This document shows positions 18,668 through 39,335 of a DNA stretch of 53,158 nt, piece after piece. Origin of the DNA: an uncultured Eubacterium sp. (GTDB lineage: Bacteria > Bacillota > Clostridia > Lachnospirales > Lachnospiraceae); contig CANDJC010000012.1 of NCBI GenBank assembly GCA_947384955.1, positions 1 through 53,158 on the forward strand, written 5' to 3'. Numbering within the stretch: the stretch's first letter is position 1; the number at the start of each line of letters is the position of its first letter. The translations under genes and the position numbers were made by a program. The notes under the pieces are model-generated. The model made no database searches. It was given only the letters and a program-made list of their open reading frames with translations, and had not been told where the DNA came from.

Positions 18668-19789
18668 ATGCGGAAATGTGTTCTTATGCTTGTGAATCAT
18701 GATGTGGTTATTTATAATTTCCGGCTGGAACTGGTGGAAAAACTCCTGAATGACGGCTATGAGGTTCACATATCAAGTCCTTATGGAGAACGTATTGGTG
18801 AGCTGGTTTCTCTGGGTGCGGTATATCATGAAACCGTTATAGAGCGTCATGGAATGAATCCTCTGAATGAGGTGAAAATTCTAAGCAGGTATCGAAAAAT
18901 AATTGCAGCTATTCATCCGTTTATCGTTCTTGGCTACACGATTAAGCCCAATATTTATGGAGCAGTTGCTGCAAGGAGTGCAGGTATTCCATTTGTAGCG
19001 AATATTACCGGACTTGGAACAGCTGCTGGAAACAGCGGGGCAGGACAGTGGCTGGCTGTTTTGCTTTATAAAGCAGCATTCACCCATATACAGCGTGTAT
19101 TTTTTCAAAATGAAGAAAATAGGAAATTTTTTCTTGCAAATAATATTGCTGCAGACAGATACAGGATGCTTCCTGGCAGCGGCGTTAACCTGGAACGATA
19201 TCCGTTTACACTGCTTCCGCAGTGCGGAGATGGAAAAACAGGAAAGCCTGTAAAGTTTGCGTTTATTTCCCGCATTATGAAAGAAAAAGGAATTGAGCAG
19301 TTTCTTGCAGCAGCAGAATGTGTATGTGCCCGTTATCCAGCTGTTGAATTTCATGTCTGCGGGTTTTGTGAAAATGAGTATGAAGGAAGACTGGAAGAAA
19401 TGAATGCAGCCGGTGTAGTTACCTATCATGGGATGATTCGGGACGTTGCGGGTTTTATGAGCAGTATTCACTGTGTTGTACATCCTACGTTCTATCCAGA
19501 GGGACTCAGTAATGTGCTTCTGGAAGCATGCAGCAGCGGCAGAGCAGTTATAACGACAGACCGGCCAGGATGCCGGGAAGCGGTAGAGAATGGAGTAAAT
19601 GGATACATAGTTCCGCAGAAGGATATAAAAAGTCTGACAGCCGCGATAGAAAGATTTATAGGGCTCACACAGAAAGAGAAAGAACAGATGGGACAGGCAG
19701 GCAGAAAAATCGCAGAAAAAAGATTTGACCGTAAGATTGTGGTTAGCGCTTATATGGATGAAATCTGGCAGGCCGAAGCTATACAGTAA
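18668..19789 (+). CDS. GT4-type glycosyltransferase
   Basis: A 373-residue GT-B glycosyltransferase. The N-terminal half reads MLVNHDVVIYNFRLELVEKL and YTIKPNIYGAVAARSAGIP, typical of CapM/PglA-type enzymes that add the second sugar to an undecaprenyl-diphosphate sugar. The C-terminal half has the donor-binding FISRIMKEKGIEQF and the E(x7)E-like region HPTFYPEGLSNVLLEACSSG. It acts at the inner membrane face. No initiating phosphosugar transferase (WcaJ/PglC type) is present in the window, so the lipid-linked first sugar must be made elsewhere. AAGGAGAT precedes the ATG. Confidence 0.93.
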   Translation: MRKCVLMLVNHDVVIYNFRLELVEKLLNDGYEVHISSPYGERIGELVSLGAVYHETVIERHGMNPLNEVKILSRYRKIIAAIHPFIVLGYTIKPNIYGAVAARSAGIPFVANITGLGTAAGNSGAGQWLAVLLYKAAFTHIQRVFFQNEENRKFFLANNIAADRYRMLPGSGVNLERYPFTLLPQCGDGKTGKPVKFAFISRIMKEKGIEQFLAAAECVCARYPAVEFHVCGFCENEYEGRLEEMNAAGVVTYHGMIRDVAGFMSSIHCVVHPTFYPEGLSNVLLEACSSGRAVITTDRPGCREAVENGVNGYIVPQKDIKSLTAAIERFIGLTQKEKEQMGQAGRKIAEKRFDRKIVVSAYMDEIWQAEAIQ

Positions 19790-19804
19790 AGGAATCATAT
19801 TTAT

Positions 19805-20812
19805 ATGAGTTTGAAATATAAAATAGTAATTATAGTTACGTGGTTTGGAGAACTTCCGGCATATTTTCCGGCATGGCTGATGAGTGCAGAATATAATAAG
19901 GACGTGGATTTTTTAATATTCAGCGACCATAAGATATCGTCCAAATCAGAAAATATTCAGTTTCAGTATATGACACTGGAAGACAGTATCCGGCTGTTTG
20001 AAGAGAAACTTCATAGAAAAATATGGATAAAAAACAGTTATAAATTTTGTGACTGCAGAGCTTTTTTTGGAATTGCTTATGAGGATTTTCTTAAGGGATA
20101 TGATTTTTGGGGATACTGCGACATAGATTTGATGTTCGGGAATATCAGGCGATTTTTAACAGATGATGTTTTGGAACGTTATGACAGGTTTTATCCGTAT
20201 GGACATCTGAGTATTTTTAGAAATACAGAAAGAATAAACAGGCTGTATCAGCTGCCGGGTGCAAGATACAGCGAAAAGGAAGTTTTCGAAAAAGCGGCAA
20301 AGACAACATTTGAAGAACATCTCGGACTGAACAGAATCTGCCGCAAGAACGGTATAAAATGGTATGTTAAAACTGATTTTGCTGATTTTGCCATGCGATA
20401 TCCAGACAGACTGGAAATGAAACATGGAAAGAAAAATTATGAAAAACAGATATTTGTCTGGGATGGCGGGGAAGCATTTTTGGTGTTTGAGAAAAAAGGC
20501 CGGGTAAAAAAAAGGCCATTAGTTTACATGCACTGGCAGAAACGGAAGCCGGTATTTATAGCAGATAGCGAAAGCCGCCAGTATGCAGTTTTTGCAGACA
20601 GAATTACATCTGCAAATATAAAAGAAATGTCCGATATCGAAGAACTGTTTCTGTCAAACAAAGCGCTGACTGGGAAAGAAAAGCAGAAATTTTCCAGAAA
20701 GTATTATATTCGCAAAATGAAAGATTTTTTTAGAAGCGATGCGGGTACAAAGTGCATGTGGCTCAGGCAGAAGCTTGATATGATTTTTGAACGGGATAAA
20801 GGGTATAGATAA
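19805..20812 (+). CDS. DUF6625-type putative glycosyltransferase, first copy
   Basis: A 335-residue protein beginning with a hydrophobic strand (YKIVIIVTWFGELP) and carrying YDFWGYCDIDLMFGNI, whose DID looks like a metal-binding DxD motif of a GT-A fold. The family is annotated as a domain of unknown function often found in polysaccharide loci; an enzymatic glycosyltransferase role is inference. A related gene lies at 21900. It follows the GT4 gene after 15 bases. The ribosome binding site is weak. Confidence 0.8.
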   Translation: MSLKYKIVIIVTWFGELPAYFPAWLMSAEYNKDVDFLIFSDHKISSKSENIQFQYMTLEDSIRLFEEKLHRKIWIKNSYKFCDCRAFFGIAYEDFLKGYDFWGYCDIDLMFGNIRRFLTDDVLERYDRFYPYGHLSIFRNTERINRLYQLPGARYSEKEVFEKAAKTTFEEHLGLNRICRKNGIKWYVKTDFADFAMRYPDRLEMKHGKKNYEKQIFVWDGGEAFLVFEKKGRVKKRPLVYMHWQKRKPVFIADSESRQYAVFADRITSANIKEMSDIEELFLSNKALTGKEKQKFSRKYYIRKMKDFFRSDAGTKCMWLRQKLDMIFERDKGYR

Positions 20813-20835
20813 CAAAAAGAGACAGGAAGGGCAGA

Positions 20836-21873
20836 ATGCAAAAACCTTATTTTAGTATTATTGTTCCGGTATATATGGTAGAAAAATATGTTTCTCATTG
20901 TATAGAAGATATACTGAAACAGACATTTCAAAGCTATGAATTAATACTTGTAGATGATGGCTCTGCTGACAGCAGCGGTGCGATATGTGACCGGTATTCG
21001 AAAGCGTATAAACAGATTAAAGCGATTCATACGAAAAACCAGGGACTGCCGGCGGCACGGAATAACGGGATTAAGGCTGCCAGTGGAGAATGGTTCGTTT
21101 TTATAGATTCGGATGATAGAATTGATTCACGGTATTTTTTGAAAGCGATATACGAAAAAACAAAGAACAGGAGTATAGATATTTTGACATATGGATGTAT
21201 ACAGGCCAGCGAAAAAACAGGCATGGCGCTTAAGAGAATGTATGCAGATATGGGAACTATGAATCAGTTTGCTTCTGTAAAAGAGAAAGTGAGATGGTGT
21301 GTCACTTATTCCAGGCTTTCTGTATCTGCGTGGCTTCATGCGTGTTCAAAACGTTTTTTGATTCAAAATCAGCTTTATTTTAATGAAGATTTAAAGACGG
21401 CGGAGGACATTGAGTGGTTTTTCCGTGCATTAAGCTGTGAACCAGAGATATGCGGAATGAACGGGACACCATACCGCTATATCATAAGAGAAAATTCTAT
21501 CTGTACCGGAGTAAAAAAAAGCGGATTTTGGAAATACAGGGAAGAAGCTGTACGGCTGTCCGTGAATGCAGTAAAAAATGCCAGGACAGACAGGGAATAT
21601 AAGAAAATTTTATATTCGGCACTGGCATATCATTATTATGTTCAGCTTGCAGACATTGGAAGTGAGCCGGTAAAGGAAAAAAAGAGGGAAGCCTTTGACA
21701 GGATGAAAGATTTAGAACCTCTGCAGCGTTATGCATGTGGCAGAAAATCGAAAATCAGCAGATGTATTGTCCGTATGTTTGGTATAGAAAAAGGAGCGGA
21801 GATATTAAGCAGTTATGTAAAAGCCAGAGCACTTTTAAATGGGTATCCCGTCCGTTCAATGGCTTGTAAATAA
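20836..21873 (+). CDS. GT2 family glycosyltransferase
   Basis: A 345-residue GT-A enzyme opening with YFSIIVPVYMVEKYVSHCI, then LILVDDGSADSSGAICDRY and IDSDDRID, the nucleotide and metal-binding motifs of family 2, and AEDIEWFFRAL as the catalytic-acid region. The sugar donor cannot be told. A GACAGGAAGG site precedes the ATG by seven or eight bases; the gene fits the run of closely spaced transferase genes. Confidence 0.94.
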   Translation: MQKPYFSIIVPVYMVEKYVSHCIEDILKQTFQSYELILVDDGSADSSGAICDRYSKAYKQIKAIHTKNQGLPAARNNGIKAASGEWFVFIDSDDRIDSRYFLKAIYEKTKNRSIDILTYGCIQASEKTGMALKRMYADMGTMNQFASVKEKVRWCVTYSRLSVSAWLHACSKRFLIQNQLYFNEDLKTAEDIEWFFRALSCEPEICGMNGTPYRYIIRENSICTGVKKSGFWKYREEAVRLSVNAVKNARTDREYKKILYSALAYHYYVQLADIGSEPVKEKKREAFDRMKDLEPLQRYACGRKSKISRCIVRMFGIEKGAEILSSYVKARALLNGYPVRSMACK

Positions 21874-21899
21874 AACAGGTTCAATTGGAGGAGCATGCT

Positions 21900-22883
21900 T
21901 TGAAAATAGTTTTTATTGTACCGTATTTCGGAACATTTCCTGACGGTTTTAATCTTTTATTAAAGTCAATCGAAAAAAATAAAGAGAATTATACATGGCT
22001 TTTTTTCACAGATGACAGGCGTGATTATGACTGGCCTTCGAATACGATTGTGAAATACGGTTCTTTTTCTTCATTGAAAAAGCAGATACAGAAAAGATTC
22101 GATTTTCCGGTCAGTCTGGAACGTCCGTATAAACTCTGCGATTATAAGCCGGCTTACGGATATATTTTTGAAAAATTCATAGAAGGTTATGATTTTTGGG
22201 GACACTGTGACATAGACTGCATTTATGGAAAACTGGATCATTTTTTTACGGATGAAGAGTTTAAATCCGATAAAATCCTGCGTCTGGGCCATATGACTTT
22301 ATATAGAAATACAAAGCAGAACAATCGCAGATTTATGGATACAGCAGACGGGCGGAAGCGATATAAAGAAGTATATACAACAGAAGCATCCTGTGCATTT
22401 GATGAAAATAACAGTATGAAGAATCTGAATATATGCGATATATGGCGGGAACACGGGTATTCAGAATGTCTTATGGATGAAGCTTTTGCTAACATATGGG
22501 CAAAAGGAAATACATTTCGTCTTACAGTTCAGAAAAATGGTGCAGATTATGAAATAGAGAAGAAAAAAAGAAGCCTGTTTATCTGGAAGAACGGAATTTT
22601 AAAACGGTTATGTATTGAGGATGGGAAGCTGACGGAACGGGAATATCTGTACATACACATGATGGGAAGAGTTATGAAAAATCTTGTGACTGGCTCGGAT
22701 ATATCACAGTTTAAAATAATACCAAACCAGTATAGGAATCTTAAGCATGTGCCAGAGAATGTGCATGAATTTTATTGTGAAAAATGGCGCACAGTTAATT
22801 GTCAGTATGTAAGACTCAGGACGAAATATCTGTGGATAAAGTTAAAAAGGTTTTCAGATAACAGGAAGAAAAATAAACACTGA
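21900..22883 (+). CDS. DUF6625-type putative glycosyltransferase, second copy
   Basis: A 327-residue homologue of the gene at 19805: it starts KIVFIVPYFGTFPDGF and has YDFWGHCDIDCIYGKL with the same DID motif, followed by a similar order of motifs (LGHMTLYRNT, then SLFIWKNG, then YIHM). The TTG at 21900 is preferred because GGAGGAG lies six bases upstream and the intervening ATG runs into a stop. Two diverged copies imply two different linkages or sugars rather than redundancy; this is inference. Confidence 0.82.
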   Translation: MKIVFIVPYFGTFPDGFNLLLKSIEKNKENYTWLFFTDDRRDYDWPSNTIVKYGSFSSLKKQIQKRFDFPVSLERPYKLCDYKPAYGYIFEKFIEGYDFWGHCDIDCIYGKLDHFFTDEEFKSDKILRLGHMTLYRNTKQNNRRFMDTADGRKRYKEVYTTEASCAFDENNSMKNLNICDIWREHGYSECLMDEAFANIWAKGNTFRLTVQKNGADYEIEKKKRSLFIWKNGILKRLCIEDGKLTEREYLYIHMMGRVMKNLVTGSDISQFKIIPNQYRNLKHVPENVHEFYCEKWRTVNCQYVRLRTKYLWIKLKRFSDNRKKNKH

Positions 22884-22893
22884 TAGGAGTTTT

Positions 22894-23934
22894 ATGATTT
22901 ATATAATGGCAGCCCTGCTGTTTCCGGGGTTCTGTTTTCCGAAGTCAAAATTTTGCTTTTATACAGAGTCGATGGCGCTTGCTGCAGTTCTGGGCGGATT
23001 TAACGGGGATCTTGATTTAAATAATTACAGGCATAGGTATGAATTAGAATTGATACCGTTTGAATTTGAACAGCTCATGTATTCAGGAGTATCTTCTTTT
23101 TTTCACAGAATAGGAGTGAGCTTTGAATGGTATCATTTTATACTTACAGCAATTACGGTTTTTATAATAGCGATATGTGTGCGAAGTCTGACTGAACATT
23201 CTGCATATGCAATGTCGCTGATTAGTACATTTGCCCTTCTTGAAACAGCATGGCAGTTAAAGACACTGACTGCAATGGGAATGTCGGTGCTTGCATTATG
23301 GTGGCATTACCAAAAAATATATGTTTCAGATAATCCGGGAGCAATGCATAAAGCAGTATTTCTTATGCTGGTACTGGCGGCAGCGCAGTTTCATTATCTT
23401 GCGTTATTTTTTGTTCTTTTTCTATTTGTGAAAAAAAAGAATCATGTTTTTGTAATGATTAAAAATATGCTGCTCTTTGATCTGATTTTCTTTTGTTTTT
23501 CAGATGTAGTAATAAAAACCGCGGCGAAATTTTTGTATTCGCTGCACAGGTACACGCAGCCTATGTCAATTCCGAGTATTATGATTACAATTGCGTGGCA
23601 GGTATCCGCAATTGCTGTGGTTTACTGTGCACAAAGATATCATAAAGATGAATTCAGCGGGTGGATATTACAGGGGACGCTCTTGTTTTTGCTTCTCATT
23701 CCAATGTATAAGTATACGGTTGTTGCTACCCGTATATTCAGAATCTGGATGGTTTTTACTGCCATATATATTTCAAAATTACACAGGCAGGGGATGCGGG
23801 TCAGTTTATACCGTATTCTGTATGATGCATATAATTTTGGCTCTCTGGGGTACTGGTTTGTTTTCATTAATGTATACAATGGTACAGAATCATCTGTTAA
23901 GTATCTGCTTACGAATCATATTTTAAATGGATAA
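22894..23934 (+). CDS. EpsG-family O-antigen/exopolysaccharide polymerase-like membrane protein
   Basis: A 346-residue protein with about nine or ten hydrophobic segments. The N-terminal part has the EpsG-like pattern of an acidic and tyrosine-rich loop (DLDLNNYRHRYE) followed by PFEFEQLMYSG, and a large loop near the C-terminus (YKYTVVATRIFRIWM). EpsG/Wzy proteins join repeat units on the outer face of the membrane. It is the only polymerase candidate in the locus. TAGGAG lies close to the ATG. Confidence 0.8.
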   Translation: MIYIMAALLFPGFCFPKSKFCFYTESMALAAVLGGFNGDLDLNNYRHRYELELIPFEFEQLMYSGVSSFFHRIGVSFEWYHFILTAITVFIIAICVRSLTEHSAYAMSLISTFALLETAWQLKTLTAMGMSVLALWWHYQKIYVSDNPGAMHKAVFLMLVLAAAQFHYLALFFVLFLFVKKKNHVFVMIKNMLLFDLIFFCFSDVVIKTAAKFLYSLHRYTQPMSIPSIMITIAWQVSAIAVVYCAQRYHKDEFSGWILQGTLLFLLLIPMYKYTVVATRIFRIWMVFTAIYISKLHRQGMRVSLYRILYDAYNFGSLGYWFVFINVYNGTESSVKYLLTNHILNG

Positions 23935-23978
23935 ATGGACTCGCATTATAATATAGACAGTTAACGGAGGATGATGAA

Positions 23979-24782
23979 TTGAAAATAGCTGTCATCAGTA
24001 TCAACATTGGAAAGTACATAGATTTCTGGGAAGATTTTTATAAAAGTGCAAAAAAGAATTTTTTGCCGGAACATATAAGACATTTTTTTGTATTTACAGA
24101 CCAAAAGCAGATTCTTTTTCAGCATCGGAAGGATGTATCGGTAATACAGCAGAAAAACCTGGGCTGGCCAGGGAATACACTGATGCGTTATGAGATGTTT
24201 TGCAGGATTGAAAATAAACTTAAGGATTTTGATTATATCTTTTTTGCAAATGCAAATCTGTATTTTTTCAAGCCTGTCGGAGATGAGATTCTGCCAAAGG
24301 GAAATGAAAGGCTTGTTTTTGTGCAGCGGCAGACATCATACATATGGAAAAAACCGAAGATGCCGTATGAAACAAATCCGCGGAGCACGGCATATGTAAG
24401 ACCAGGAGAAAGCAGTCTGTATGTTCGCGGCGGATTTAATGGCGGCTGTGCAGAAGCTTTTCTGGAAATGAGCAGAATTTTGCGTAATCAGATTGAAACG
24501 GACAGGAAAAATGGAATTACTGCAGTCTGGCATGATGAATCGCATCTTGCCAGATATGTGATAGGAAGAAAGGACGTTAAAATTCTTTCCCCGGGATATT
24601 TGTATCCAGAGGGCTTGGTTATGCCTTATCCTAAAATGATATTAATCCGTCCGAAAGATAATCAGGCGGTCAGGTTTGGCACAGAGAAGGGAAGAATTTT
24701 GATTATGAAAGATAAGGCCTTTTTAACATTTCGAAATCTGATATACATCATATTGATACGTCTGCGTGTCATTAAATTTTAA
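23979..24782 (+). CDS. GT6-family glycosyltransferase (ABO blood-group enzyme family)
   Basis: A 267-residue protein covering the full catalytic domain of CAZy family GT6. Visible family motifs are HFFVFTD (35-41), GWPGNTLMRYEMF (62-74), FFANANLYFF (88-97), MPYETNPRSTAYV (128-140), GGFNGG (151-156), WHDESHL (184-190) and LSPGYLYPEG (203-212). The mammalian metal-binding DxD is NAN (91-93) here, as in described bacterial GT6 enzymes that do not need metal. Mammalian members transfer alpha-1,3-linked Gal or GalNAc. The protein has no membrane anchor. The start is TTG with GGAGG eight bases upstream. The donor sugar is not determined by sequence alone. Confidence 0.9.
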   Translation: MKIAVISINIGKYIDFWEDFYKSAKKNFLPEHIRHFFVFTDQKQILFQHRKDVSVIQQKNLGWPGNTLMRYEMFCRIENKLKDFDYIFFANANLYFFKPVGDEILPKGNERLVFVQRQTSYIWKKPKMPYETNPRSTAYVRPGESSLYVRGGFNGGCAEAFLEMSRILRNQIETDRKNGITAVWHDESHLARYVIGRKDVKILSPGYLYPEGLVMPYPKMILIRPKDNQAVRFGTEKGRILIMKDKAFLTFRNLIYIILIRLRVIKF

Positions 24783-24807
24783 GTGCTCTGGGGAGGAAGA
24801 TGCTTTT

Positions 24808-25833
24808 ATGTGTAAAATATCTGTTGTTACCAGCGTTTGGAATGGTGAAAAATACATTGGCGAGACAATAATGAGAGTTAGAAACCAGACTTTTACGGAC
24901 TGGGAATACATTATTATAGATAACTGTTCCGATGACAGAACAGCAGAAATTGTTCAAAAGCATGTAAAAAAGGACAGCAGAATTAAATTTATTCAAAATG
25001 ACAGGAATCTTGGAATATCACCCAATTTAAATAAAGGAATACGGTTAGCAAAAGGCAGATATATTGCAAGGCTGGATCATGATGACCTTTGTTATCCCAG
25101 ACGGCTTGAAGTACAGTATCAATATATGGAAACACATCCTGAAATACTGCTGTCCGGGTGTGGTGCGGATCAGTGGATAAAAGGAAAGATATATCCTGGC
25201 ACAAATGCCGTAAAAGCTGCAGATGAAAAAGAAGTGCGGTTTGCAATGGTATTTGCTTTTTTTTCAATTATGGCACATTCAACATTCTTTTTCCGCAGAC
25301 AGGAAATCATAGATAAAGGAATCTGGTATCGGGATTTAAAGTATGTTGAAGATCTGGCATTTATTTTTGACACGTTAAGAGCAGGAAAAGCCGGATATTT
25401 ACCGGAACCTCTCATTGCTTATCGGATACATGGCGCCCAGGTCACGAAAAATCTGTCTGCTGCACTGAAATTTACGGAACAGAAGGATGTTTTTTTTGAA
25501 TATCTGAATGCAATAGATGTCAGAGATAAAGAAATTGTCAGAAAAGCATTTCTTGGCAGCATAGAAGGTGAAAAGGACATGCGGCGTTATGCGAAAGCAA
25601 TGGCGGATTATGCAGAGACATGCGGTATCAAAGGAAATCTGGCTGAAAATGCGTGTGTCAGACAGATGTATCGCAGAGTATTTGACAGACAGCGGTGCGG
25701 GCTGAAAATGCTATCCGTATATGGGCGCAGTCCTTTGAGAGAACCTGTATGGTTTTTCAAACGAAGAGGATTATCTTTGATCAGGCAGTGTGTGCTGAAA
25801 GAAGATAAAATGGAAATAAGGCTGTCGGACTGA
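24808..25833 (+). CDS. GT2 family glycosyltransferase
   Basis: A 341-residue GT-A enzyme with CKISVVTSVWNGEKYIGETI, IIIDNCSDDRTAEIVQ and ARLDHDDLCYP, the family 2 donor and metal motifs, and YVEDLAFIFDTL as the acceptor/catalytic-acid region. The C-terminal 100 residues are basic and may sit at the membrane. GGGAGGAA lies nine bases before the ATG at 24808, which I prefer over the in-frame upstream start overlapping the GT6 gene. The acceptor and donor are unknown. Confidence 0.93.
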   Translation: MCKISVVTSVWNGEKYIGETIMRVRNQTFTDWEYIIIDNCSDDRTAEIVQKHVKKDSRIKFIQNDRNLGISPNLNKGIRLAKGRYIARLDHDDLCYPRRLEVQYQYMETHPEILLSGCGADQWIKGKIYPGTNAVKAADEKEVRFAMVFAFFSIMAHSTFFFRRQEIIDKGIWYRDLKYVEDLAFIFDTLRAGKAGYLPEPLIAYRIHGAQVTKNLSAALKFTEQKDVFFEYLNAIDVRDKEIVRKAFLGSIEGEKDMRRYAKAMADYAETCGIKGNLAENACVRQMYRRVFDRQRCGLKMLSVYGRSPLREPVWFFKRRGLSLIRQCVLKEDKMEIRLSD

Positions 25834-25849
25834 AACAGGGAGGATTATA

Positions 25850-26620
25850 TTGAAAACAGTGATTTTAGCCGGGGGATTCGGTACCAGAATATCAGAGGAA
25901 AGCCAGTTTATCCCAAAGCCAATGATACAGATTGGAGGAATGCCTGTAATCTGGCATATTATGAAGCATTATTCTTATTATGGGTTTCATGATTTTATTA
26001 TATGCGCCGGATATAAGCAGGAGGTAATTAAAAAGTGGTTTTCGGAGTATTATATGTGCAGAAATGATGTAACGTTTGATTTTAAGAAAGATGGCAGGAT
26101 GACAGTTTACCAGAAAAGCATAGAGCCGTGGACCGTTACAATTGCTGATACAGGGCTGCATACGCTGACTGGGGGACGCATGGCGGCAGTAAAAGATTAT
26201 ATTGGCAAAGAGACGTTTCTGATGACATATGGGGATGGTGTTTCGAATGTGAATCTGGAAGAACTCTTAGATTTTCATAAGAAAGAAGGAAAACTTGTTA
26301 CGCTGACTGCTGTACAGCCAGGGAGCAGGTTTGGAGTATTAAAGCTAAATGAGAAACAGGTTCTGTCGTTTCAGGAAAAGAAAATGGAAGATTCTGACTG
26401 GGTTAATACAGGGTATATGGTGCTGGAACCGGATGTGTTTGATTATATCGTAACTGACTGCATGTTTGAGCAAAAACCATTGGAGGATATTGTAAAAGAC
26501 GGAGAACTTGTCTGTTACCGGCATCATGGCTTCTGGCAGTGTATGGATACGATGCGGGATAAAGAACATCTGGAAAAACTGTGGACAGGCGGTGATGCGC
26601 CATGGAAGCTGTGGGAGTAA
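25850..26620 (+). CDS. rfbF: Glucose-1-phosphate cytidylyltransferase-like nucleotidyltransferase
   Basis: A 256-residue sugar nucleotidyltransferase. LAGGFGTRISEE (6-17), FIPKPMIQIGGMP and TYGDGVSN are the activation, phosphate and metal motifs; IWHIMKHYSYYGFHDFIIC and EYYMCRNDVTFDF match glucose-1-phosphate cytidylyltransferase (RfbF), which makes CDP-glucose from CTP. The start is TTG with AGGGAGG about six bases upstream. In known pathways CDP-glucose then meets a 4,6-dehydratase (RfbG), which is not found in this window, so the product here may be used directly or completed elsewhere. Confidence 0.9.
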   Translation: MKTVILAGGFGTRISEESQFIPKPMIQIGGMPVIWHIMKHYSYYGFHDFIICAGYKQEVIKKWFSEYYMCRNDVTFDFKKDGRMTVYQKSIEPWTVTIADTGLHTLTGGRMAAVKDYIGKETFLMTYGDGVSNVNLEELLDFHKKEGKLVTLTAVQPGSRFGVLKLNEKQVLSFQEKKMEDSDWVNTGYMVLEPDVFDYIVTDCMFEQKPLEDIVKDGELVCYRHHGFWQCMDTMRDKEHLEKLWTGGDAPWKLWE

Positions 26621-26646
26621 TCAGTTACAGAAATGAGGATATGGTG

Positions 26647-27765
26647 ATGATTAAATTATCAAGAGGATGCTGCGAAGAAGAAGAATTACAGCAGGTAAAG
26701 GAAGCATTTGATTACGGGTATTTTGGACTTGCTTATAAGACAGATGAATTTGAACAGGAAATAGGCAGATATCTAAATACACCGCGAAGCGTGATTGTGA
26801 CAAATACAGGAACGACAGCACTTCATCTGGCACTTGACACAATCGGGGTATCACAGGGCGATGAAGTGATTATGCCTTCATTTACATTCGCAGCTACTGC
26901 ACAGGCAGTCAAGATGTGCGGTGCAAAACCTGTATTTTGTGAAGTTCATTCTGATACATTTCTTATGGATACAGATGATGTAAAGAGAAAAATATCGGAT
27001 AGAACAAAGGCTGTTATACCGGTTCATTATGCCGGGAGGCCCTGTGATATGGATATTCTGATGGAAATACACAGTAAGACGGGAATCCGGATTGTGGAAG
27101 ACGCAGCACATGCTTTTGGGTCAGAATATAAAGGGCGTAAAATAGGAGCGTTTGGGGACATTACCTGCTTTAGCTTTGATTCAATCAAAGTCATTACCTG
27201 CGGCGACGGCGGTGCTGTTATTACAGATGATCCCTTGTTTGAGGAGCTGTCCAGGAAGAAACGGCTGCTTGGCATTGACCGTAAAACGATGGTGACAAAA
27301 GACTGGAAGAAGCGTTCATGGATGTATGATGTAACGGTTCCCGGATATCGGTATCATCTTGGGAATATCAATGCGGCAATCGGGCTTGCACAGATTAAAA
27401 AAACAGACAGGTTTATACAAAGGCGCCGGGAAATCTGTCATTTATATGATAAGGAACTGCATGGGATAAAAGGCATTGAACGAACGCCGGATGATTATGA
27501 CACGATTACTCCTTTTATGTATGCAGTGAGGGTAAAAGAGGGGAAAAGGAATCTGCTGAAAGATTATCTGATGGGTTATGATATTGAAACAGGAATCAGC
27601 TATATTCCCTGCCATACGTTTCAGCTATTCCACGAAGAGGAAATACAGCTTCCGATAACGGATGAGATATTTAAGGAAATCCTCTGTCTGCCAGTTCACC
27701 CAGAGCTTGCAGACGAAGAGGTTATAGAGGTTTCCAGAAGAATCAGGGAGTTTATGGAGTTATGA
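26647..27765 (+). CDS. DegT/DnrJ/EryC1-family sugar aminotransferase
   Basis: A 372-residue PLP enzyme. NTGTTALHLAL, MPSFTFAATAQAV and VEDAAHAFGSEYKGR are family motifs; the PLP lysine is Lys181 in FDSIKVITCGDGGA. Because lysine is retained it should be a true nucleotide-sugar aminotransferase rather than the His-type 3-dehydratase (RfbH). The ATG at 26647 has GAGG eight bases upstream; an extension to 26602 overlaps rfbF. It overlaps the next gene by ATGA. It would transfer an amino group to a keto-sugar made by another enzyme. Confidence 0.92.
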   Translation: MIKLSRGCCEEEELQQVKEAFDYGYFGLAYKTDEFEQEIGRYLNTPRSVIVTNTGTTALHLALDTIGVSQGDEVIMPSFTFAATAQAVKMCGAKPVFCEVHSDTFLMDTDDVKRKISDRTKAVIPVHYAGRPCDMDILMEIHSKTGIRIVEDAAHAFGSEYKGRKIGAFGDITCFSFDSIKVITCGDGGAVITDDPLFEELSRKKRLLGIDRKTMVTKDWKKRSWMYDVTVPGYRYHLGNINAAIGLAQIKKTDRFIQRRREICHLYDKELHGIKGIERTPDDYDTITPFMYAVRVKEGKRNLLKDYLMGYDIETGISYIPCHTFQLFHEEEIQLPITDEIFKEILCLPVHPELADEEVIEVSRRIREFMEL

Positions 27766-28331
27766 CAGAGATGTTTCAGTTTGAAGAATCGGAATTAAAA
27801 GGCGCATATATGATTCAGCCGTTTTATGCTGCGGATGAACGCGGCGGACTAATTAAAGATTACCATATAAATGAGTTTAAAAGTCATGGCATTGAACATG
27901 AACTGAAAGAAGTATTTTATACAATTTCCCGCAAAGGGGTTATCCGGGCACTTCATTTTCAGTCAGGTCATCAGCAGGCAAAACTTGTAAGATGCGTAGC
28001 GGGAAAAATCTATGATGTCATTGCAGACCTTCGGAAAGGCTCTGAAACATTTGGACAGTGGCGGGGATATGAACTAAGCGCAGAAAATCGCAGGGAAATA
28101 TATGTTCCGCAGCATTTTGGCCACGGATATCTGGTTCTTGAAGAATCGGTAGTCAGTTATAAATGCAGCGATGTGTTTTACTCGAAAGAGGATTCTGGAA
28201 TTATTTACAGTGATCCTGATTTAGGGATTGACTGGCCGTTTAATTTAATCGGAGGAGCAGAAAACCTTATAATCAGCGATAAGGACAGAAATCTTATGAG
28301 TTTTCGGGAATTTCAGCAGCAGGGGGACTGA
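27762..28331 (+). CDS. RfbC-like nucleotide-keto-sugar 3,5-epimerase (cupin)
   Basis: A 189-residue cupin-fold protein of the dTDP-4-dehydrorhamnose 3,5-epimerase family. DERGGLIKDY, the catalytic-base motif RALHFQ (His65), the adjacent QQAKLVRCVAG, and FGHGYLVLEE with VVSYKCSDVFY (position of the catalytic tyrosine) are visible, ending with IIYSDPDLGIDWPF as in the family. The start overlaps the aminotransferase stop, so they are translationally coupled. No RmlA/B/D genes are nearby, so the substrate may be a CDP- or other keto-sugar; related QdtA-like isomerases are less likely because the RfbC motifs are intact. Confidence 0.88.
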   Translation: MTEMFQFEESELKGAYMIQPFYAADERGGLIKDYHINEFKSHGIEHELKEVFYTISRKGVIRALHFQSGHQQAKLVRCVAGKIYDVIADLRKGSETFGQWRGYELSAENRREIYVPQHFGHGYLVLEESVVSYKCSDVFYSKEDSGIIYSDPDLGIDWPFNLIGGAENLIISDKDRNLMSFREFQQQGD

Positions 28332-28332
28332 T

Positions 28333-29353
28333 ATGGCAAAAAAACATATACTATTAATCGGCGGATATACTTCTACAAATATAGGGAATGGTTTTTATGA
28401 AATGGGAGTTAAATATATGCTTTCGAATATATCAGATGAATTTGTAGTTCACTGTACATCAGATCTGTCTTTGTATTACTGGGATAAATTCAGAGCAGAA
28501 CAGGATGGATTTGAGCCGGCGGAGCATTTTCGAGGACTCGACTATATTGTATGGATGGGGCCGGTATTTGACGCGGTTTCCATGAAGAAGTGGAAAGATG
28601 TGCTGGAGAGAGCCGGAAATCAGGGCAGCAGAATCATGTGTTTAGGTGCCGGAAGCAGCCAGTATACAAAAGAGGAAGTGGCAGAGTGTAAAAAAATTCT
28701 AAAAAAATATCCGTTTTATATTCTAATAAGCAGGGATACCTGGACTTATAAGGCTTATAAGGATGATTTTACATATGCATATGATGGAATCTGTCCGGCA
28801 TTTTTCTCATCTCTTTGTTTTCAGAAATGGAAGCTGGATATGCCTCCATTTGCAGTATTTGATTTCGAACAGTATACAGAACCGGATTTTATAAGAGACA
28901 GTTCAGGTTTTGCATTTCATGGCGGAAACTGGCAAGGGGGGGGGGCTGAAGAAAAGAACTGTCGTTACAGAAATGATACAGAAATATCCCAAAGAGCAGT
29001 TTGACGGTCTCATGATAATCAGGACAAAAAATACTTGTATCAGACCGGAGAATATAGGCGGTAAATACAGAGGCAGAAACATATATCTTTCGGATGTGCC
29101 CGAGGATTATTTAAACATCTATGCGAATGCCCAGGCTGTTTTTTCTGACCGTGTCCATGCCTGTGCAGGTGCACTGGCACAGGGAACGCCGGCAATGTTT
29201 TTTGGCAGAACGCCGAGAGCGAAATTGTTTGAACGCTTTTTTAAAAATCATTCCGCTGCATTATACAGCAAGCCGGTAAGCCTGGATATGAATATGCTTG
29301 ATAATGAAAGAAACAGACAATTAGATTTTCTGCGGAAAGTTCTTATGAAATAG
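28333..29353 (+). CDS. Polysaccharide pyruvyl transferase, out of frame at a ten-G tract (probable phase-variable gene)
   Basis: The first frame (28333-29004) begins KHILLIGGYTSTNIGNGFYE and has YIVWMGPVFDAV, MCLGAGSSQY and YILISRDTWTYK. It goes out of frame at ten G (28936-28945) and stops at residue 223. The missing family C-terminus is in the next frame: VPEDYLNIYANAQAVFSDRVH, then ACAGALAQGTPAMFF, ending at 29353. With nine G the two parts join into a 339-residue protein that reads Q-GGG-LKKRTVV across the join. Members add ketal-linked pyruvate, or act on related acceptors, in surface polysaccharides. A sequencing error in the tract is the alternative. Confidence 0.85.
28936..28945 (+). 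repeat. Poly-G slippage tract inside the pyruvyl transferase gene
   Basis: Ten consecutive G lie in the coding region. Loss of one base (or gain of two) restores the full frame. Homopolymer G/C tracts of this length inside surface-structure genes are a classic phase-variation device in other bacteria. Confidence 0.85.
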
Positions 29354-29386: not shown

Positions 29387-31135
29387 ATGTCGGTCACCAG
29401 AGTATTAAAAAAATACAGGGCTGTTTTATCAAAACATCAAAAAATAAGAGTTGTCGAGCTGGGCATTCTTATGCTGCTTGGAGGGATACTGGAAACCTGT
29501 TCCGTGTCTCTTGTACTGCCGTTTATAGATGCAGTCATGAATCCCGGCGCGCTTATGGAAAAGCAGTATGCCAAAGGAATTTGTAATATGCTGAACATAC
29601 ATGATTCCAGAATTTTTTTAATGCTGATGGCTGCTTTGCTTGCGGCAGTATATATATTGAAAAATATGTATTTGTTATTTGAATACAGCATACAGTACAG
29701 ATTTGTCTATGCAAATATGTTTCAGATGCAGAAACGGCTGCTGCATGACTTTATTAACAGACCGTATGAATATTTTCTAAAGGTAAATTCAGGAGAAATG
29801 ATCCGGCTGCTGAACAATGATATACCGGCTGTATATGAGACACTGATGGTTGTGCTTACGCTGTTTACGGAATCCATTGTATCAATGATGCTGATAGCTG
29901 TCATTTTTATGATTGCACCGGCAGTCACTGTGGCAGTGGCATTTGTACTTCTGGCACTTTTAATTACAGTAAATACAATCATAAAACCGGCACTGAGAAA
30001 CTGCGGACTGAAAGACCAGCGGGCACTGGCGGGAATGAATAAGTGGCTGCTTCAGTCGATACAGGGTATTAAAGAAGTGAAGGTGATGCAGTCAGAAGTA
30101 TTTTTTCAGGAAAGATTTGATAGTTATGGAAGCGTGCATATAAACAGTCTTCGCAAGAGCCGCATCTTAAACTTAATGCCGAGATTTTTGATTGAAGGAA
30201 TCTGTATGGCGGCTATGTTTATAGTCATTGGATTTTTGATTTACCTTGGTGAAAATTTGGAGAAAGTCATTCCGGTTGTTTCGGCTGTTGCAGCAGCCGC
30301 TGTCAGGCTGCTGCCTTCGGTAAACAGGATTTCCAGTGCCATGGCATCGGTATCATATAATGAACCGATGCTGGATAAACTGATTGAAAATCTGGACAGT
30401 CTGGATGAAAGCGGAAGAGATGCAGGAAGCGGAAAGAGCAGCAGTTTTTGTTTAAACCATGACCTGTGCTTCAGGCAGGTGCTGTATCGGTATCCGGATT
30501 CAGAACATACAGTTTTAAGCGGTGCAGACATGAGGATTCAAAAAGGAGAGTCGATTGGAATAGCGGGAGCTTCCGGGGCAGGAAAGACAACACTGACAGA
30601 TATTATGCTTGGATTATTAAAGCCGCAGCAGGGTCAGGTGCTTGCTGACGGAAAAGATATTTCAGATGATATACAGGGATGGTACCGCTGTGCGGGCTAT
30701 ATACCGCAGACAATTTTTATGCTGGATGGAACGATACGAGAAAATATAACATTTGGGATGGAAAATGCGAACGGAGATGCAGATAATACAGATGCCAGGA
30801 TTATAGAAGCTCTGGAAGAGGCATCGTTAGGTGAATTTTTGGCGGGACTTCCAGACGGGCTGGATACCGAAATAGGAGAACGCGGTATGCGCCTGTCTGG
30901 AGGGCAGAGGCAGAGAATTGGTATTGCAAGGGTACTGTTTCGAAATCCGGAAGTATTATTTTTTGATGAAGCTACTTCTGCTCTGGATCATGAAACAGAA
31001 GCGGCTATCATGGATTCTATATACCGGCTGCATAGAAAGAAAACAATGGTTATAATTGCGCACAGACTTTCAACACTGGAAAAGTGTGATCATGTTTACA
31101 GGGTTGAAAATGGAAAAATTGTTGTACAGAGATAG
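29387..31135 (+). CDS. PglK/MsbA-type ABC flippase for lipid-linked oligosaccharide
   Basis: A 582-residue half-transporter: six transmembrane helices in the first ~320 residues (LMLLGGILETCSVSLVLPF etc.) followed by an ATPase domain with Walker A GASGAGKTT near residue 391, a Q-loop YIPQTIFM, the signature LSGGQRQRIG near 503, Walker B VLFFDEATSALD and the H-loop IIAHRLST. The arrangement and N-terminus resemble PglK-like flippases that move undecaprenyl-diphosphate glycans. No Wzx-type (MOP) flippase is in the locus, so this is the likely exporter. AGAGGGTAG precedes the ATG. Confidence 0.92.
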   Translation: MSVTRVLKKYRAVLSKHQKIRVVELGILMLLGGILETCSVSLVLPFIDAVMNPGALMEKQYAKGICNMLNIHDSRIFLMLMAALLAAVYILKNMYLLFEYSIQYRFVYANMFQMQKRLLHDFINRPYEYFLKVNSGEMIRLLNNDIPAVYETLMVVLTLFTESIVSMMLIAVIFMIAPAVTVAVAFVLLALLITVNTIIKPALRNCGLKDQRALAGMNKWLLQSIQGIKEVKVMQSEVFFQERFDSYGSVHINSLRKSRILNLMPRFLIEGICMAAMFIVIGFLIYLGENLEKVIPVVSAVAAAAVRLLPSVNRISSAMASVSYNEPMLDKLIENLDSLDESGRDAGSGKSSSFCLNHDLCFRQVLYRYPDSEHTVLSGADMRIQKGESIGIAGASGAGKTTLTDIMLGLLKPQQGQVLADGKDISDDIQGWYRCAGYIPQTIFMLDGTIRENITFGMENANGDADNTDARIIEALEEASLGEFLAGLPDGLDTEIGERGMRLSGGQRQRIGIARVLFRNPEVLFFDEATSALDHETEAAIMDSIYRLHRKKTMVIIAHRLSTLEKCDHVYRVENGKIVVQR

Positions 31136-34608: not shown

Positions 34609-34632
34609 ATGAAAAAGTTTGAAAGGCTGGTT

Positions 34633-35514
34633 ATGGCAAGAGAAAAAATTATTTTAGGCGACAGAACGATAGACGAGACGAGTACGCCGTATTTTATTGC
34701 TGAAATAGGTATTAATCATAATGGCGATATTCAGACAGCGAAAAGGCTGATAGATGCCGCTTTTGCTATTGGGTGGGACTGTGTGAAGTTTCAGAAACGT
34801 GAGCCTGATATTTCAGTTCCAGATGTGCAGAAAGAGATACTGCGCGACACACCCTGGGGAAAGATGACATATTTAGAATATAAAAAAAGAATAGAGTTTG
34901 GACAAAAAGAGTATGATTTGATTGACAAATACTGCAGGGAAAAACCGTTATCCTGGACAGCGTCTCCATGGGATATGCCAAGCCTGGAATTTATCATGCA
35001 GTATGATGTCCCGTTTATTAAGCTGGCTTCAGCTGCAAATGGTAATGAGGAACTGATAAAAGCAGCATGCGTATATAAAAAGCCTATTATTCTTTCAACA
35101 GGGATGTGTACCCAGGATGAACTGGATAAAACAGTGTCTCTGCTTGAAGATTTCAGCGATGGCAGGTACATTCTGATGCATACGAATTCAACATATCCTG
35201 CATCAAATGACCGGCTGAATTTAAGGTATATCCAGACGATAAAGGAACGTTATCATTGTCTTGCCGGCTATAGCGGGCATGAACAGAATCTGGAGCCTAC
35301 TGTTGCAGCGGTTGCACTGGGAGCAAAGGTAATTGAGCGGCATGTAACTGTTTCACATGAATTGTGGGGAACAGATCAGAAAGCGAGCCTGGAAATTAGC
35401 GCTATGAATATGGTTTATAAAAGATGCTGCGGTATTATAGAAGCAATCGGGTCCGGGCAAAAGACTTTAGAAGAGGATGAGCTGCAGATAAGAATGAAAC
35501 TGAGGGGGAATTAG
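34633..35514 (+). CDS. NeuB-family nonulosonic acid synthase lacking the SAF domain
   Basis: A 293-residue TIM-barrel enzyme of the N-acetylneuraminate synthase family, which condenses phosphoenolpyruvate with an aldose. YFIAEIGINHNGD, WDCVKFQKRE, LSTGMCTQDEL, AGYSGHE and ALGAKVIERHVT are family motifs. Typical NeuB proteins are about 340-350 residues with a C-terminal SAF (antifreeze-like) domain that caps the partner's active site; this protein ends at RMKLRGN without it. GAAAGG six bases upstream supports ATG 34633 over 34609. The activating gene follows after four bases. The aldose substrate is unknown; no NeuC-type epimerase is nearby. Confidence 0.88.
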   Translation: MAREKIILGDRTIDETSTPYFIAEIGINHNGDIQTAKRLIDAAFAIGWDCVKFQKREPDISVPDVQKEILRDTPWGKMTYLEYKKRIEFGQKEYDLIDKYCREKPLSWTASPWDMPSLEFIMQYDVPFIKLASAANGNEELIKAACVYKKPIILSTGMCTQDELDKTVSLLEDFSDGRYILMHTNSTYPASNDRLNLRYIQTIKERYHCLAGYSGHEQNLEPTVAAVALGAKVIERHVTVSHELWGTDQKASLEISAMNMVYKRCCGIIEAIGSGQKTLEEDELQIRMKLRGN

Positions 35515-35518
35515 ACAA

Positions 35519-36706
35519 ATGATAAATGCTGCATTTATTCCTGTCCGCGGAGGCAGCAAGTCTGTGCCGCTTAAAAATACAAAAGAGATTGCCGGACATC
35601 CTTTACTATACTGGACGGCAAAGGCAGCACAGGACTGTAAAGAGATTGACAGAATATATATAGCAACAGACTGTGATATTATCAGACAGGCTGCGGAATC
35701 TTTTGGCTTTTCAAAAATAAAAGTGACAGGCAGAAGCCCGGAGACGGCAACCGATACAGCATCGACAGAATCAGCAATGCTGGAATTCGCACAGGAGCAT
35801 GAATTTGATAATATAGTTTTGATACAGGCGACGTCACCCTTGCTGACGGCAGATGATTTAAACGGCGGTTTTCATGTTTTTTACAGAAATAATATAGACA
35901 GTGTTCTGTCTGTTGTTGTACAGAAAAGATTTTTATGGAAGTATAAAAACGGCATGGAAGCAGAGCCGTTAAACTATGATATTTATCACCGTCCTAGACG
36001 TCAGGAGTTTGAAGGATATCTTGTTGAGAATGGAGCTTTTTATATAACAGGCCGCAGCAGTCTTCTTTCATCACGCAGCAGGCTGTCAGGAAGAATTGGC
36101 GTTTATGAGATGCCGCCTGAAACTTATCTGGAAATTGATGAGCCGGATGACTGGGAAATTGTCAGCGAGCTGCTGAAAAGACGGGAACATTTTAAAAGAA
36201 AAAGCAGAAAAGATACGGATAAAGATATGAATCTGAACTATATTAAAATGTTTCTGACAGACTGTGACGGATGTCTGACAGATGGAGGAATGTATTATTC
36301 TGAATCGGGTGATGAGCTTAAAAAATTTAATACCAGAGATGGTTATGCATTTCAGATGCTTCGGGAGAAAGGTATTATTACAGGAATTATTACTGGAGAA
36401 GATCAAAAGCTTAACCTCCGCAGAGCAGAAAAAATGCAGCTGAATGAGATTATTTCAGGTTCGAAAGATAAGTTAGCGGATGTTCAAAAATTATGCTGTA
36501 AGTACGGTATTGAGCTTGAACAGGTAGCATATGTCGGCGATGATTTGAACGATATAGAAGTAATTAGAATGGCAGGATTTGGATGTGCTCCATCAGATGC
36601 CTGTGATGAAGTAAAAGAAGCTGCTGGTTATATCACATCGCAAAAAGGCGGACAGGGAGTTATCAGGGAAGCTGTTGATGTGCTGATGAAGGACAACAGA
36701 TTGTAA
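35519..36706 (+). CDS. neuA: Fusion of CMP-sialic-type cytidylyltransferase and KdsC-like HAD phosphatase
   Basis: A 395-residue two-domain protein. Residues 1-225 are an acylneuraminate cytidylyltransferase: IPVRGGSKSVPLKNTKEI, IYIATDCD, LIQATSPLLTADD and YLVENGAFYITGR. Residues about 240-395 are a KdsC/YrbI-type HAD phosphatase: FLTDCDGCLTDGG (motif I), GIITGEDQ and YVGDDLNDIEV. The same order occurs in animal CMP-sialic acid synthetases. The fused phosphatase suggests that the upstream synthase makes a phosphorylated ulosonic acid (for example a 9-phosphate) that is dephosphorylated before activation; this is inference. Confidence 0.93.
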   Translation: MINAAFIPVRGGSKSVPLKNTKEIAGHPLLYWTAKAAQDCKEIDRIYIATDCDIIRQAAESFGFSKIKVTGRSPETATDTASTESAMLEFAQEHEFDNIVLIQATSPLLTADDLNGGFHVFYRNNIDSVLSVVVQKRFLWKYKNGMEAEPLNYDIYHRPRRQEFEGYLVENGAFYITGRSSLLSSRSRLSGRIGVYEMPPETYLEIDEPDDWEIVSELLKRREHFKRKSRKDTDKDMNLNYIKMFLTDCDGCLTDGGMYYSESGDELKKFNTRDGYAFQMLREKGIITGIITGEDQKLNLRRAEKMQLNEIISGSKDKLADVQKLCCKYGIELEQVAYVGDDLNDIEVIRMAGFGCAPSDACDEVKEAAGYITSQKGGQGVIREAVDVLMKDNRL

Positions 36707-36756
36707 CAGAAGAGTATGTAGTTAAATTTGATGAAAAAGGGAGATAAAATTAAAGA

Positions 36757-37482
36757 ATGCCGAACGGGTGGAAAGATATATGGTGCACGAAACAGACTGT
36801 CTGTTCTGATAATGGAACGGATGAATTTGCCAGATTTTGTGAATTGAAAAAGGCGAATGGATTTGATGTGGCTGTAGGAAATGAAAAGCTGTATTTTGAA
36901 CTGTTTTATCAGGAATGGATGAGCTTCTTTCATAAGATTGCAGAACTTCTTGGGGAAGGTATAGGGGATATAAAAAGTGTCTATGAGGCAGGGTGTGGAA
37001 GCGGAGTAAATCTTTATATGTTTCAAAACCGTTTGCAATGTAAAACAGGAGGATGTGATTATTCACCGGCAATGGCTGAAAGCGCTAGAATCGTGACAGG
37101 ATGTGAAGATTTTAGATGCTGCAGTGCAGATGAAATATCCATTGAGCCACAGTATGATATTGTAATGGCAGAAAGTGTTTTTCAATATTTTGAATCACAT
37201 GTATACGCAGAAGAAGTTTTAAGAAAGATGATCAAAAAGAGCCGGAAAATAACGTATGTGGGAGAAATACATAATGCGGTTTATGAACAGGAACTTATGG
37301 AATGCAGAAGGAAATCAATTGACAATTATGAGACAAAGTATGAAGGACTTTCCAAGCTGTTTTTTTATAAAGAGTGGTTTCACAGGATTGCCAGTGATTA
37401 TGGAAGGAAAGTCGTTTATATGGATGTGAAAAATCCAGAGTATATTAATGCAAAATATTTATTCAACTGTTTTATATTTTAG
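36757..37482 (+). CDS. SAM-dependent methyltransferase
   Basis: A 241-residue class I methyltransferase. SVYEAGCGSGVNLYMF is SAM motif I, GGCDYSPAMAESAR the acidic loop after strand 2, and YDIVMAESVFQYFES the motif IV region. The N-terminus (NGWKDIW, CELKKANGFDVAVG) resembles methyltransferases of surface-sugar loci. An AAGGGAG site lies about 12 bases upstream. It is likely to methylate a sugar or sugar precursor; the target is unknown. Confidence 0.82.
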   Translation: MPNGWKDIWCTKQTVCSDNGTDEFARFCELKKANGFDVAVGNEKLYFELFYQEWMSFFHKIAELLGEGIGDIKSVYEAGCGSGVNLYMFQNRLQCKTGGCDYSPAMAESARIVTGCEDFRCCSADEISIEPQYDIVMAESVFQYFESHVYAEEVLRKMIKKSRKITYVGEIHNAVYEQELMECRRKSIDNYETKYEGLSKLFFYKEWFHRIASDYGRKVVYMDVKNPEYINAKYLFNCFIF

Positions 37483-37508
37483 AAGCGGACAGGAGGAAAC
37501 AATATAAT

Positions 37509-39335
37509 ATGCAAGCAATAATTCTGGCCGCGGGAATGGGAAAACGGCTGAAAGAACGAACACAAAGCAACACAAAATGCATGGTCAGAGTGAACCGGAC
37601 AACCTTGATAGAAAGAATGCTGCGACAGCTGGACAAAAGAAGTCTGTCGAGAATTATAATCGTAACCGGTTATGAAAGAAAGAAGCTGCAAGAGCATGTT
37701 AATATGATTGAAGTTAAAACACCGGTTATTTTTGTAGAAAATCCTATATATGATAAAACAAATAATATTTATTCTTTATCGCTTGCCAAAAAATACCTTC
37801 TTCAAGAAAATACTCTTTTGTTTGAATCAGACATTATATTTGAAGACGCTGTTCTGGATGAGATTATCAGAGACAAAAGAGATAGCCTGGCATTGGTAGA
37901 CAGATACGAATCCTGGATGGATGGAACCTGTGTCAGGCTGGATAGTCAGGACAGAATTACAGACTTTATATCCCGGAAAAATTTTGATTTTAAAAATACG
38001 GCTGGATGTTACAAAACAGTTAATATTTATAAGTTTAGCAGAGAATTTTCTGAAACATATTATGTACCGTTCTTGGAAGCGTACTTAAAAGCTCTTGGTG
38101 AAAATGAATATTATGAACAGGTACTCTGTGTAATCATCATGCTTGATGATGTGCAGATACGTGGAAAACGGCTGAATGGCCAGAGATGGTATGAAATTGA
38201 TGATGAGCAGGATCTGGATATCGCATCAGTAATTTTTTGTGATAATTCTGAAAGAGTTTCGAAGCTGGAAGAACGTTATGGAGGATATTGGAGATTTTCT
38301 GAATTGCTGGATTTCTGCTATTTGGTAAATCCTTATTATCCTCCGCAGAAGATGGTTGATGAAATGAAGGCATCGTTTGACAAAATGCTTATGCAGTATC
38401 CGTCTGGAATAAACATCAATTCGCTATTGGCGGCGAAAAATTTTAGTATCCGTAAGGAAAATATAGTGGTTGGGAATGGTGCTTCTGAATTGATCAGAGC
38501 TTTTATGAGCAGGCTTCAAGGAAAAACAGGATTTATCAGGCCGGCATTTGAAGAATACCTAAATAGATATGATTTAGATGATGCCGTGATTTTTGATGTG
38601 GGAGAGCGTGACTGCCGTTATACGGCAGATGATTTGATGGAATATTACAGAGGTACAGATATATCAGCGCTTGTGCTTGTAAATCCAGATAATCCTTCTG
38701 GCAATTATATTAAAAAAGCAGATATACAAAGGCTGGCGGACTGGTGTATGGAGCATGAAATAACGCTGCTTCTTGATGAATCATTTGCTGATTTTTCGGA
38801 GGAACCGGACAATACATGTATCCGTCAGAATATACTGGATGAGAACCCGTATCTATACGTGATGAAAAGTATATCAAAGTCGTATGGGGTTCCAGGATTG
38901 CGTATTGGGGTGCTGGCATCCGGTGATACAAAGATGATTGCTGAACTGAAGAAAGATGCTGCCATTTGGAATATAAATTCTTTTGCAGAATTTTATATGC
39001 AGATAGAAGAAAAATATATAAAAGAATATGCAAAAGCTATGGATAAATTCCGTCAAGAGAGAAAGAGATTTATCGAAGAACTAAACCAGCTGGAATATCT
39101 AAGGGTGCTGCCTACACAGGCTAATTTCGTAATGGCTGAACTGCAAAACGGTATGTCAGCGAAAGAACTGGTTTCTGATATTCTTATAAATTATAATATT
39201 CTGATTAAAGATCTGTCAAATAAAATGCAAGGAAGGCCTTTTATCCGCATTGCAATCAGGAACGAAGATGATAACAGAATTCTGGCTAAAGCTTTGAAAG
39301 TCTGTCTGAAAAAAGAAGAAAAGAAGGATGTGTAA
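37509..39335 (+). CDS. Fusion of LicC-like cytidylyltransferase and CobD/HisC-like PLP enzyme
   Basis: A 608-residue two-domain protein. The N-terminal ~235 residues are a nucleotidyltransferase of the LicC/PntC type: IILAAGMGKRLKERT, NTKCMVRVN, NPIYDKTNNIYSLSLA and LFESDIIFED. The C-terminal ~340 residues are a fold-type I PLP enzyme: VVGNGASELI, LVNPDNPSGNY, LLLDESFADF and ISKSYGVPGLRIG with the PLP lysine near residue 456. GNGA-ELI, DESFADF and VPGLR are closest to threonine-phosphate decarboxylase (CobD) and HisC. One reading is that it makes a phospho-amine and activates it as a CDP derivative for LicD. A perfect AGGAGG site precedes the ATG. It closes the locus. Confidence 0.85.
   Translation: MQAIILAAGMGKRLKERTQSNTKCMVRVNRTTLIERMLRQLDKRSLSRIIIVTGYERKKLQEHVNMIEVKTPVIFVENPIYDKTNNIYSLSLAKKYLLQENTLLFESDIIFEDAVLDEIIRDKRDSLALVDRYESWMDGTCVRLDSQDRITDFISRKNFDFKNTAGCYKTVNIYKFSREFSETYYVPFLEAYLKALGENEYYEQVLCVIIMLDDVQIRGKRLNGQRWYEIDDEQDLDIASVIFCDNSERVSKLEERYGGYWRFSELLDFCYLVNPYYPPQKMVDEMKASFDKMLMQYPSGININSLLAAKNFSIRKENIVVGNGASELIRAFMSRLQGKTGFIRPAFEEYLNRYDLDDAVIFDVGERDCRYTADDLMEYYRGTDISALVLVNPDNPSGNYIKKADIQRLADWCMEHEITLLLDESFADFSEEPDNTCIRQNILDENPYLYVMKSISKSYGVPGLRIGVLASGDTKMIAELKKDAAIWNINSFAEFYMQIEEKYIKEYAKAMDKFRQERKRFIEELNQLEYLRVLPTQANFVMAELQNGMSAKELVSDILINYNILIKDLSNKMQGRPFIRIAIRNEDDNRILAKALKVCLKKEEKKDV

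Follow-up and report, generated by a model that had tools for sequence, protein, structure and literature searches.

The ten-G tract and the split gene

We analyzed a 53,158-nucleotide stretch of DNA from an uncultured Eubacterium sp. of the Lachnospiraceae, referred to below as the window. The genes and features that bear on the tract are as follows.

18668..27765, + strand: upstream glycan genes, encoding a glycosyltransferase group 1, two DUF6625, two GT2, EpsG, GT6, a nucleotidyl transferase and a DegT aminotransferase
27762..28331, + strand: dTDP-sugar isomerase-type protein (PF00908), ending one base ahead of the start of the split gene
28333..29004, + strand: upstream frame, from ATG 28333 to the stop at 29004; N-terminal piece of 223 amino acids without a family match
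28910..29353, + strand: downstream frame; C-terminal piece of 147 amino acids counted from TTG 28910, with a PF04230 match
28936-28945, + strand: ten-G tract, the proposed slippage site
29387..31135, + strand: ABC transporter combining membrane and ATPase domains, located 3' of the split gene
34609..39335, + strand: downstream glycan genes, encoding NeuB, a cytidylyltransferase/HAD protein, a methyltransferase and a nucleotidyl transferase/aminotransferase

The run of ten G is exact in the window sequence and, as stated in the initial annotation, parts two reading frames. The upstream frame has 201 codons 5' of the tract followed by 22 to its stop, which agrees with the predicted truncation at 223 residues. 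The downstream piece comprises 135 codons past the tract in a different forward frame, which is open across the tract. The nine-G product of 339 residues that had been proposed agrees, by arithmetic alone, with 201 plus 135 codons plus the tract. No other stops were found inside either piece. Coding scores were based on the codon usage of 39 other window ORFs taken as genes. The upstream piece scored +19.3 in its own frame versus -41.5 or lower in the five others, and the downstream piece +11.8 versus -20.4 or lower elsewhere, with the stop penalty making up part of these frame gaps. Per codon, the upstream and downstream pieces scored 0.096 and 0.087, respectively (gene mean 0.136, range -0.113 to 0.240); the out-of-frame tail of 19 codons, which is too short for judgement, scored 0.045. 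Each piece thus looks coding, with a change of frame at the tract, and the earlier description of the sequence as intact on both sides was borne out. Because there is no other stop and both pieces are coding-like in their own frame, the further lesions or lost coding signal of a decayed pseudogene were not found at the split gene.

The downstream piece matched PF04230 (polysaccharide pyruvyl transferase) with a score of 32 bits, above the curated cut-off of 25.3, over profile positions 221-278 of 280; by this score, membership of the family applies to the downstream piece only. Against a profile built from the PF04230 proteins of the genus itself, the downstream piece scored 22 bits and the upstream piece 0.3 bits. 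The upstream piece had no match in Pfam or NCBIfam, and its sequence hits in the PDB were at chance level only. The downstream piece thus resembles the C-terminal end of the family, whereas the N-terminal half of the split gene is not recognised. In size and location, the upstream piece is what would be expected for the missing N-terminal half, and the two pieces may form one enzyme that would add a pyruvate ketal. The name pyruvyl transferase, given initially to the whole gene, is supported by the C-terminal piece, the only part with a family match. The locus is a probable sugar-decorating gene put out of frame by the ten-G run.

The gene had also been called conserved-looking, a description that was not borne out by homologue searches, which gave almost nothing. 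The DNA of the gene was found in the host genome only among 61 genomes; it was absent from the other 60, none of which provided a second strain. The downstream protein was detected in the host plus one weak match among 250 family genomes, and the upstream protein in the host plus two weak matches (E 0.004-0.007) among 397 genomes. No homologues were confirmed in two scans of genome contigs and one of viral contigs. The split gene is rare at the DNA level (1/61 genomes) and, since relatives lack it, dispensable in the genus.

The neighbourhood consists mostly of glycan genes, with no match for four ORFs of the run, and on these predicted functions the split gene sits in a glycan-synthesis cluster. 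Cells in the truncated (OFF) state would be without the C-terminal half of the enzyme, and early termination might also reduce expression of the downstream ABC transporter.

Long G runs in the genome, genus and family

A run-persistence model expected 0.05 runs of at least ten G per window, and synonymous shuffling of the window genes expected 0.18 runs of at least nine G and 0.03 of at least ten G. Two features of contingency loci were found at the split gene: a repeat tract exceeding chance length, and a tract length that sets the frame of an otherwise intact gene. In the host genome (5.06 Mb, 271 contigs), G runs counted on the two strands together included 116 of at least nine G, 49 of exactly seven and 14 of exactly ten. 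The spectrum in 289 kb of host sequence was 155 runs of G5, 11 of G6, 4 of G7, 1 of G8 and 69 of G9; these stretches were mostly picked for runs of at least nine G, and the claim of an excess therefore rests on the genome-wide counts. Across the family, 127 of 150 genomes had 0-5 runs of at least nine G and three had 26-33. Within the genus, represented by 13 genomes (one per species), the number ranged from 3 to 116. One of the 150 family genomes, from another genus (G181; 1.6 Mb, 68% complete), had 126 such runs, a density above that of the host.

Contig ends lay within 300 bases of 38 of the 116 long G runs of the host, which hints at either assembly breaks at a repeat or a read artefact. 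A repeat directly followed the tract in 28 of 95 host tracts that were fetched, and in 5 of 64 and 3 of 68 tracts in two other species of the genus (G005 and G008, respectively), so the long runs are not uniform in type. In the window, a nine-G run at 7332-7340 is located just 5' of a very long, near-perfect hairpin repeat (7355-7605), whose RNA fold had an energy of -179.8 kcal/mol (z -14.4, 0/200 shuffles). This is the downstream flank that the repeat-linked tracts of the three species have in common. An oppositely oriented copy was seen by eye at about 8290-8540; seven C are at 8543-8549. No Rfam family reached its gathering score on the hairpin repeat. Matches to MIR1144 and the HIV RRE at 7360-7600 were far under their gathering scores and were rejected as chance, given the long hairpin of the repeat.

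A MutS_I match was present in 12 of the 13 genus genomes, including the host. The exception, G009, had more runs of exactly seven G (77) than any other of the 13, and only 3 of at least nine. Missing MutS was rejected as the cause of long runs, since the host has a MutS_I match and the genome without one has only 3 long runs; slippage in the host would therefore not be eased by missing MutS.

Tract length, reading frame and tract-bearing genes

Stretches around 95 of the 116 host tracts were fetched, the remaining 21 lying no more than 162 bases from the start of a contig, together with 64/64 tracts of G005 and 68/97 of G008, for a total of 227 in three species of the genus. A first classifier based on codon scores was underpowered and called 2 tracts in frame and 2 broken among the 227. 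A tract was then scored if one frame was clearly the longest, with at least 60 codons, on each side; these open-frame thresholds were not blind, having been set once the result of the first classifier was seen. On the sense strand, and with repeat-linked tracts dropped, 64 of the 227 were scored. The other 163 were at an edge, were coding on one side or none, showed a strand change, or had been dropped. Two tracts called broken were among those dropped as repeat-adjacent, namely L081 in the host and one opposite-strand tract in G008.

The numbers of tracts in frame and broken were 21 and 6 in the host (window tract included), 7 and 11 in G005, and 16 and 3 in G008. Sorted by length, 42 nine-G tracts were in frame and 7 broken, compared with 1 and 12 for ten or eleven G (Fisher P 2.6e-7, nine versus ten-eleven G) and 1 and 1 for twelve G. 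Nine G is the usual in-frame length of the tracts of the genome. Frames were broken at 20 of the 64 scored tracts, versus 100 among 1765 random positions and 8 among 180 A7-8 runs, although a broken-frame call can be mimicked by gene borders. The excess is weaker when compared with G5-6 runs, of which 16 of 94 were broken. With L081 still included (21/65 broken), Fisher tests gave P values of 1.6e-10 when random positions were the reference, 4e-8 for A7-8 runs and 0.009 for sense-strand G5-6 runs.

All three codon phases were used by the 44 in-frame tracts (13, 20 and 11). A simple Gly-Gly-Gly motif was rejected as the explanation of the runs, because all three phases occur and tract positions differ among homologues. 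In their flanks, 24 of the 44 were preceded by C, and 23 were followed by TA.

A Pfam scan of 40 host ORFs with an in-frame tract assigned 10 to methyltransferases, 6 to glycosyltransferase or capsule proteins, 3 to acyltransferases, and 2 each to the FrhB type, binding proteins and regulators; 10 had no match. Single members were a sugar-nucleotide enzyme, TupA, a radical SAM protein, DUF6625 and an asparagine synthase. Our impression from these 40 hand-picked ORFs, taken without a background set, is that glycan functions are enriched among tract genes. Five split loci were also searched. In one, eleven G interrupt an acyltransferase domain, the break falling between profile positions 195 and 207; in another, eleven G parts two glycosyltransferase pieces, and a two-domain glycosyltransferase at another locus (L041) is continuous at nine G. 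The tract of the third lies between an acetyltransferase and a formyltransferase, which could be two genes, and the remaining two had no Pfam match.

Tract positions were compared among homologues, named here by the Pfam matches of their host members. Tracts were located at residues 205, 210, 241 and 442 in FrhB-type proteins, at residues 16, 67, 140 and 145 in MBOAT proteins (140 and 145 align at one place), and at residues 27, 40, 102, 140 and 214 in TupA-type proteins. This would fit an independent gain of tracts in homologous proteins. Some homologue pairs have the tract at a common place, and one such pair, with 30-38% identity, is split at ten G in G005 and continuous at nine G in G008.

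Long runs were also viewed without the classifier in a six-contig genome (G004). Most of the 16 runs viewed were without a long frame on at least one side, a few nine-G runs lay inside long open frames (for example, 135 codons 5' and 170 codons 3'), and one ten-G run parts frames of 206 and 130 codons. Two other PF04230 genes were seen in pieces. The pieces of a gene in L124 (G005:C3:161700-171184, about 879-1950), which by eye belongs to a different subfamily from the window gene, meet at a nine-G tract, and this gene is broken despite the nine G. The gene near position 2350 of L212 (G004:C1:6295000-6301000) is split without a run of at least nine G at the break. Separately, an ORF pair meeting at a nine-G run occurs in two copies in G008 (L186 and L187, contig C10), with identity over 117 and 99 residues; the pair may be a mobile element that carries a frame switch.

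Explanations of the split gene and known systems

The coding signal on both sides of the tract, the genome-wide excess of G runs and the link between length and frame in three species argue for a simple-sequence contingency site that would switch by slipped-strand mispairing, with the consensus caught OFF. We consider this the probable explanation. Further points in its favour are the differing tract positions among homologues, the distant pair that is split at ten G and continuous at nine G, the second PF04230 gene split at a G tract in G005, and the glycan functions of the cluster and of many tract genes. During replication, mispairing would add or remove a single G in the run, so that the frame of a surface-glycan enzyme would be open in one part of the cells and closed in the rest. 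The OFF state would be the one recorded in the assembly, and the locus would be one among several tens of such tracts in the genome. Both the slippage and its reversibility are what we infer from the pattern of sequences. The counterpoint is that 7/49 nine-G tracts are broken, including the pyruvyl transferase gene of L124 in G005. Other points against it are the single length seen at the window tract in the only genome with the gene, the smaller excess of breaks over G5-6 runs, the MutS_I match of the host, and the upstream piece with its lack of a family match. The initial proposal of a phase-variable gene is therefore upheld in part: the slippage-type tract in an otherwise open frame, the glycan cluster and the length-frame link across the genus support it, and variation in length and a change of surface charge would be predicted from it.

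A sequencing or assembly error, in which the real run is in frame and the gene intact, is unlikely but is the strongest of the alternatives. Homopolymers this long are prone to error, and at ten G the consensus may miscount by one. The host genome was assembled into 271 contigs, and the contig ends near long G runs hint at trouble with such runs; according to a Bifidobacterium breve paper, Illumina reads fail at G tracts (PMC9187656). However, the window tract is interior to a long contig, broken ten- or eleven-G tracts occur in three separate assemblies, and a ten-G split is also present in the six-contig G004. Moreover, a count that is off by one would still leave a long G run within coding sequence.

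Next in order, and also unlikely, is a recent fixed frameshift, which would make the gene a young and irreversible pseudogene. This would fit a consensus that is out of frame, a gene of which the single host sequence shows one length, and its dispensability in the genus. The absence of a second lesion and the coding signal kept on each side speak against it, as does the location of the break at a rare mutable tract with a like pattern at other tracts. Slippage on long runs is generally known, but it is very improbable that RNA polymerase slippage or ribosomal frameshifting on the G run yields some full-length protein, or that the pieces are two proteins: starts of the downstream frame exist 5' of the tract (TTG 28910 and ATG 28919) but have no clear ribosome-binding site ahead of them by eye, and recoding is unneeded at the 44 of 64 scored tracts that are already in frame.

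A contingency site of this type would have counterparts in other bacteria. Campylobacter jejuni belongs to another phylum and differs from the host genus, in which nine G is found in 42/44 in-frame tracts and a MutS_I match is present, and for which switching is a prediction. The likeness lies in intragenic G runs, roughly 8-12 long, that determine whether surface-glycan genes are in frame, with many per genome. In strain NCTC11168, 29 loci with tracts of at least 7 have been described (PMC4965091). The pilus gene bbr_1889 of B. breve is split by ten G and fused by nine G (PMC9187656), and this gut commensal shares with the window gene the ten-G split versus nine-G fusion. It differs in that the genes concerned are pilus genes, in one or two clusters per genome, rather than a large set of glycan genes. 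Switches at one or a few G tracts have thus already been described in commensals, as in the B. breve paper. The capsule cluster of Akkermansia muciniphila is likewise a gut-commensal cluster with a pyruvyl transferase gene; its phase variation is attributed to an invertible element, which is the switch shown there and sets it apart, and slip-strand mispairing at mononucleotide repeats of an acyltransferase is raised by the authors as a possibility (PMC13343947).

The mechanism is already known, mostly from pathogens, and its occurrence in the host lineage seems to be new. Among the matches listed in a search with most subscription journals outside its scope, none dealt with poly-G phase variation in Lachnospiraceae or other Clostridia. 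A phasome study covering commensal Neisseria exists (PMC5953494), and a review (section 8) regards it as a major question that multi-locus phase variation is confined to pathogens.

We put at about even the chance that this genus of Clostridia, probably from the gut, has a phasome at least the size of that of Campylobacter, with tens of independently gained nine-G tracts in genes for surface glycans, regulators and binding proteins, ON at one common length despite a MutS_I match, and with the window gene OFF. If true, this would be a multi-locus phase-variable genome beyond the known pathogens. The tract counts of 3 to 116 in 13 species of the genus would make the question of confinement to pathogens testable by comparison. 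If the genus is commensal, it would represent a gut bacterium reshuffling its coat via many small switches, which would bear on escape from phages and antibodies in the healthy gut.
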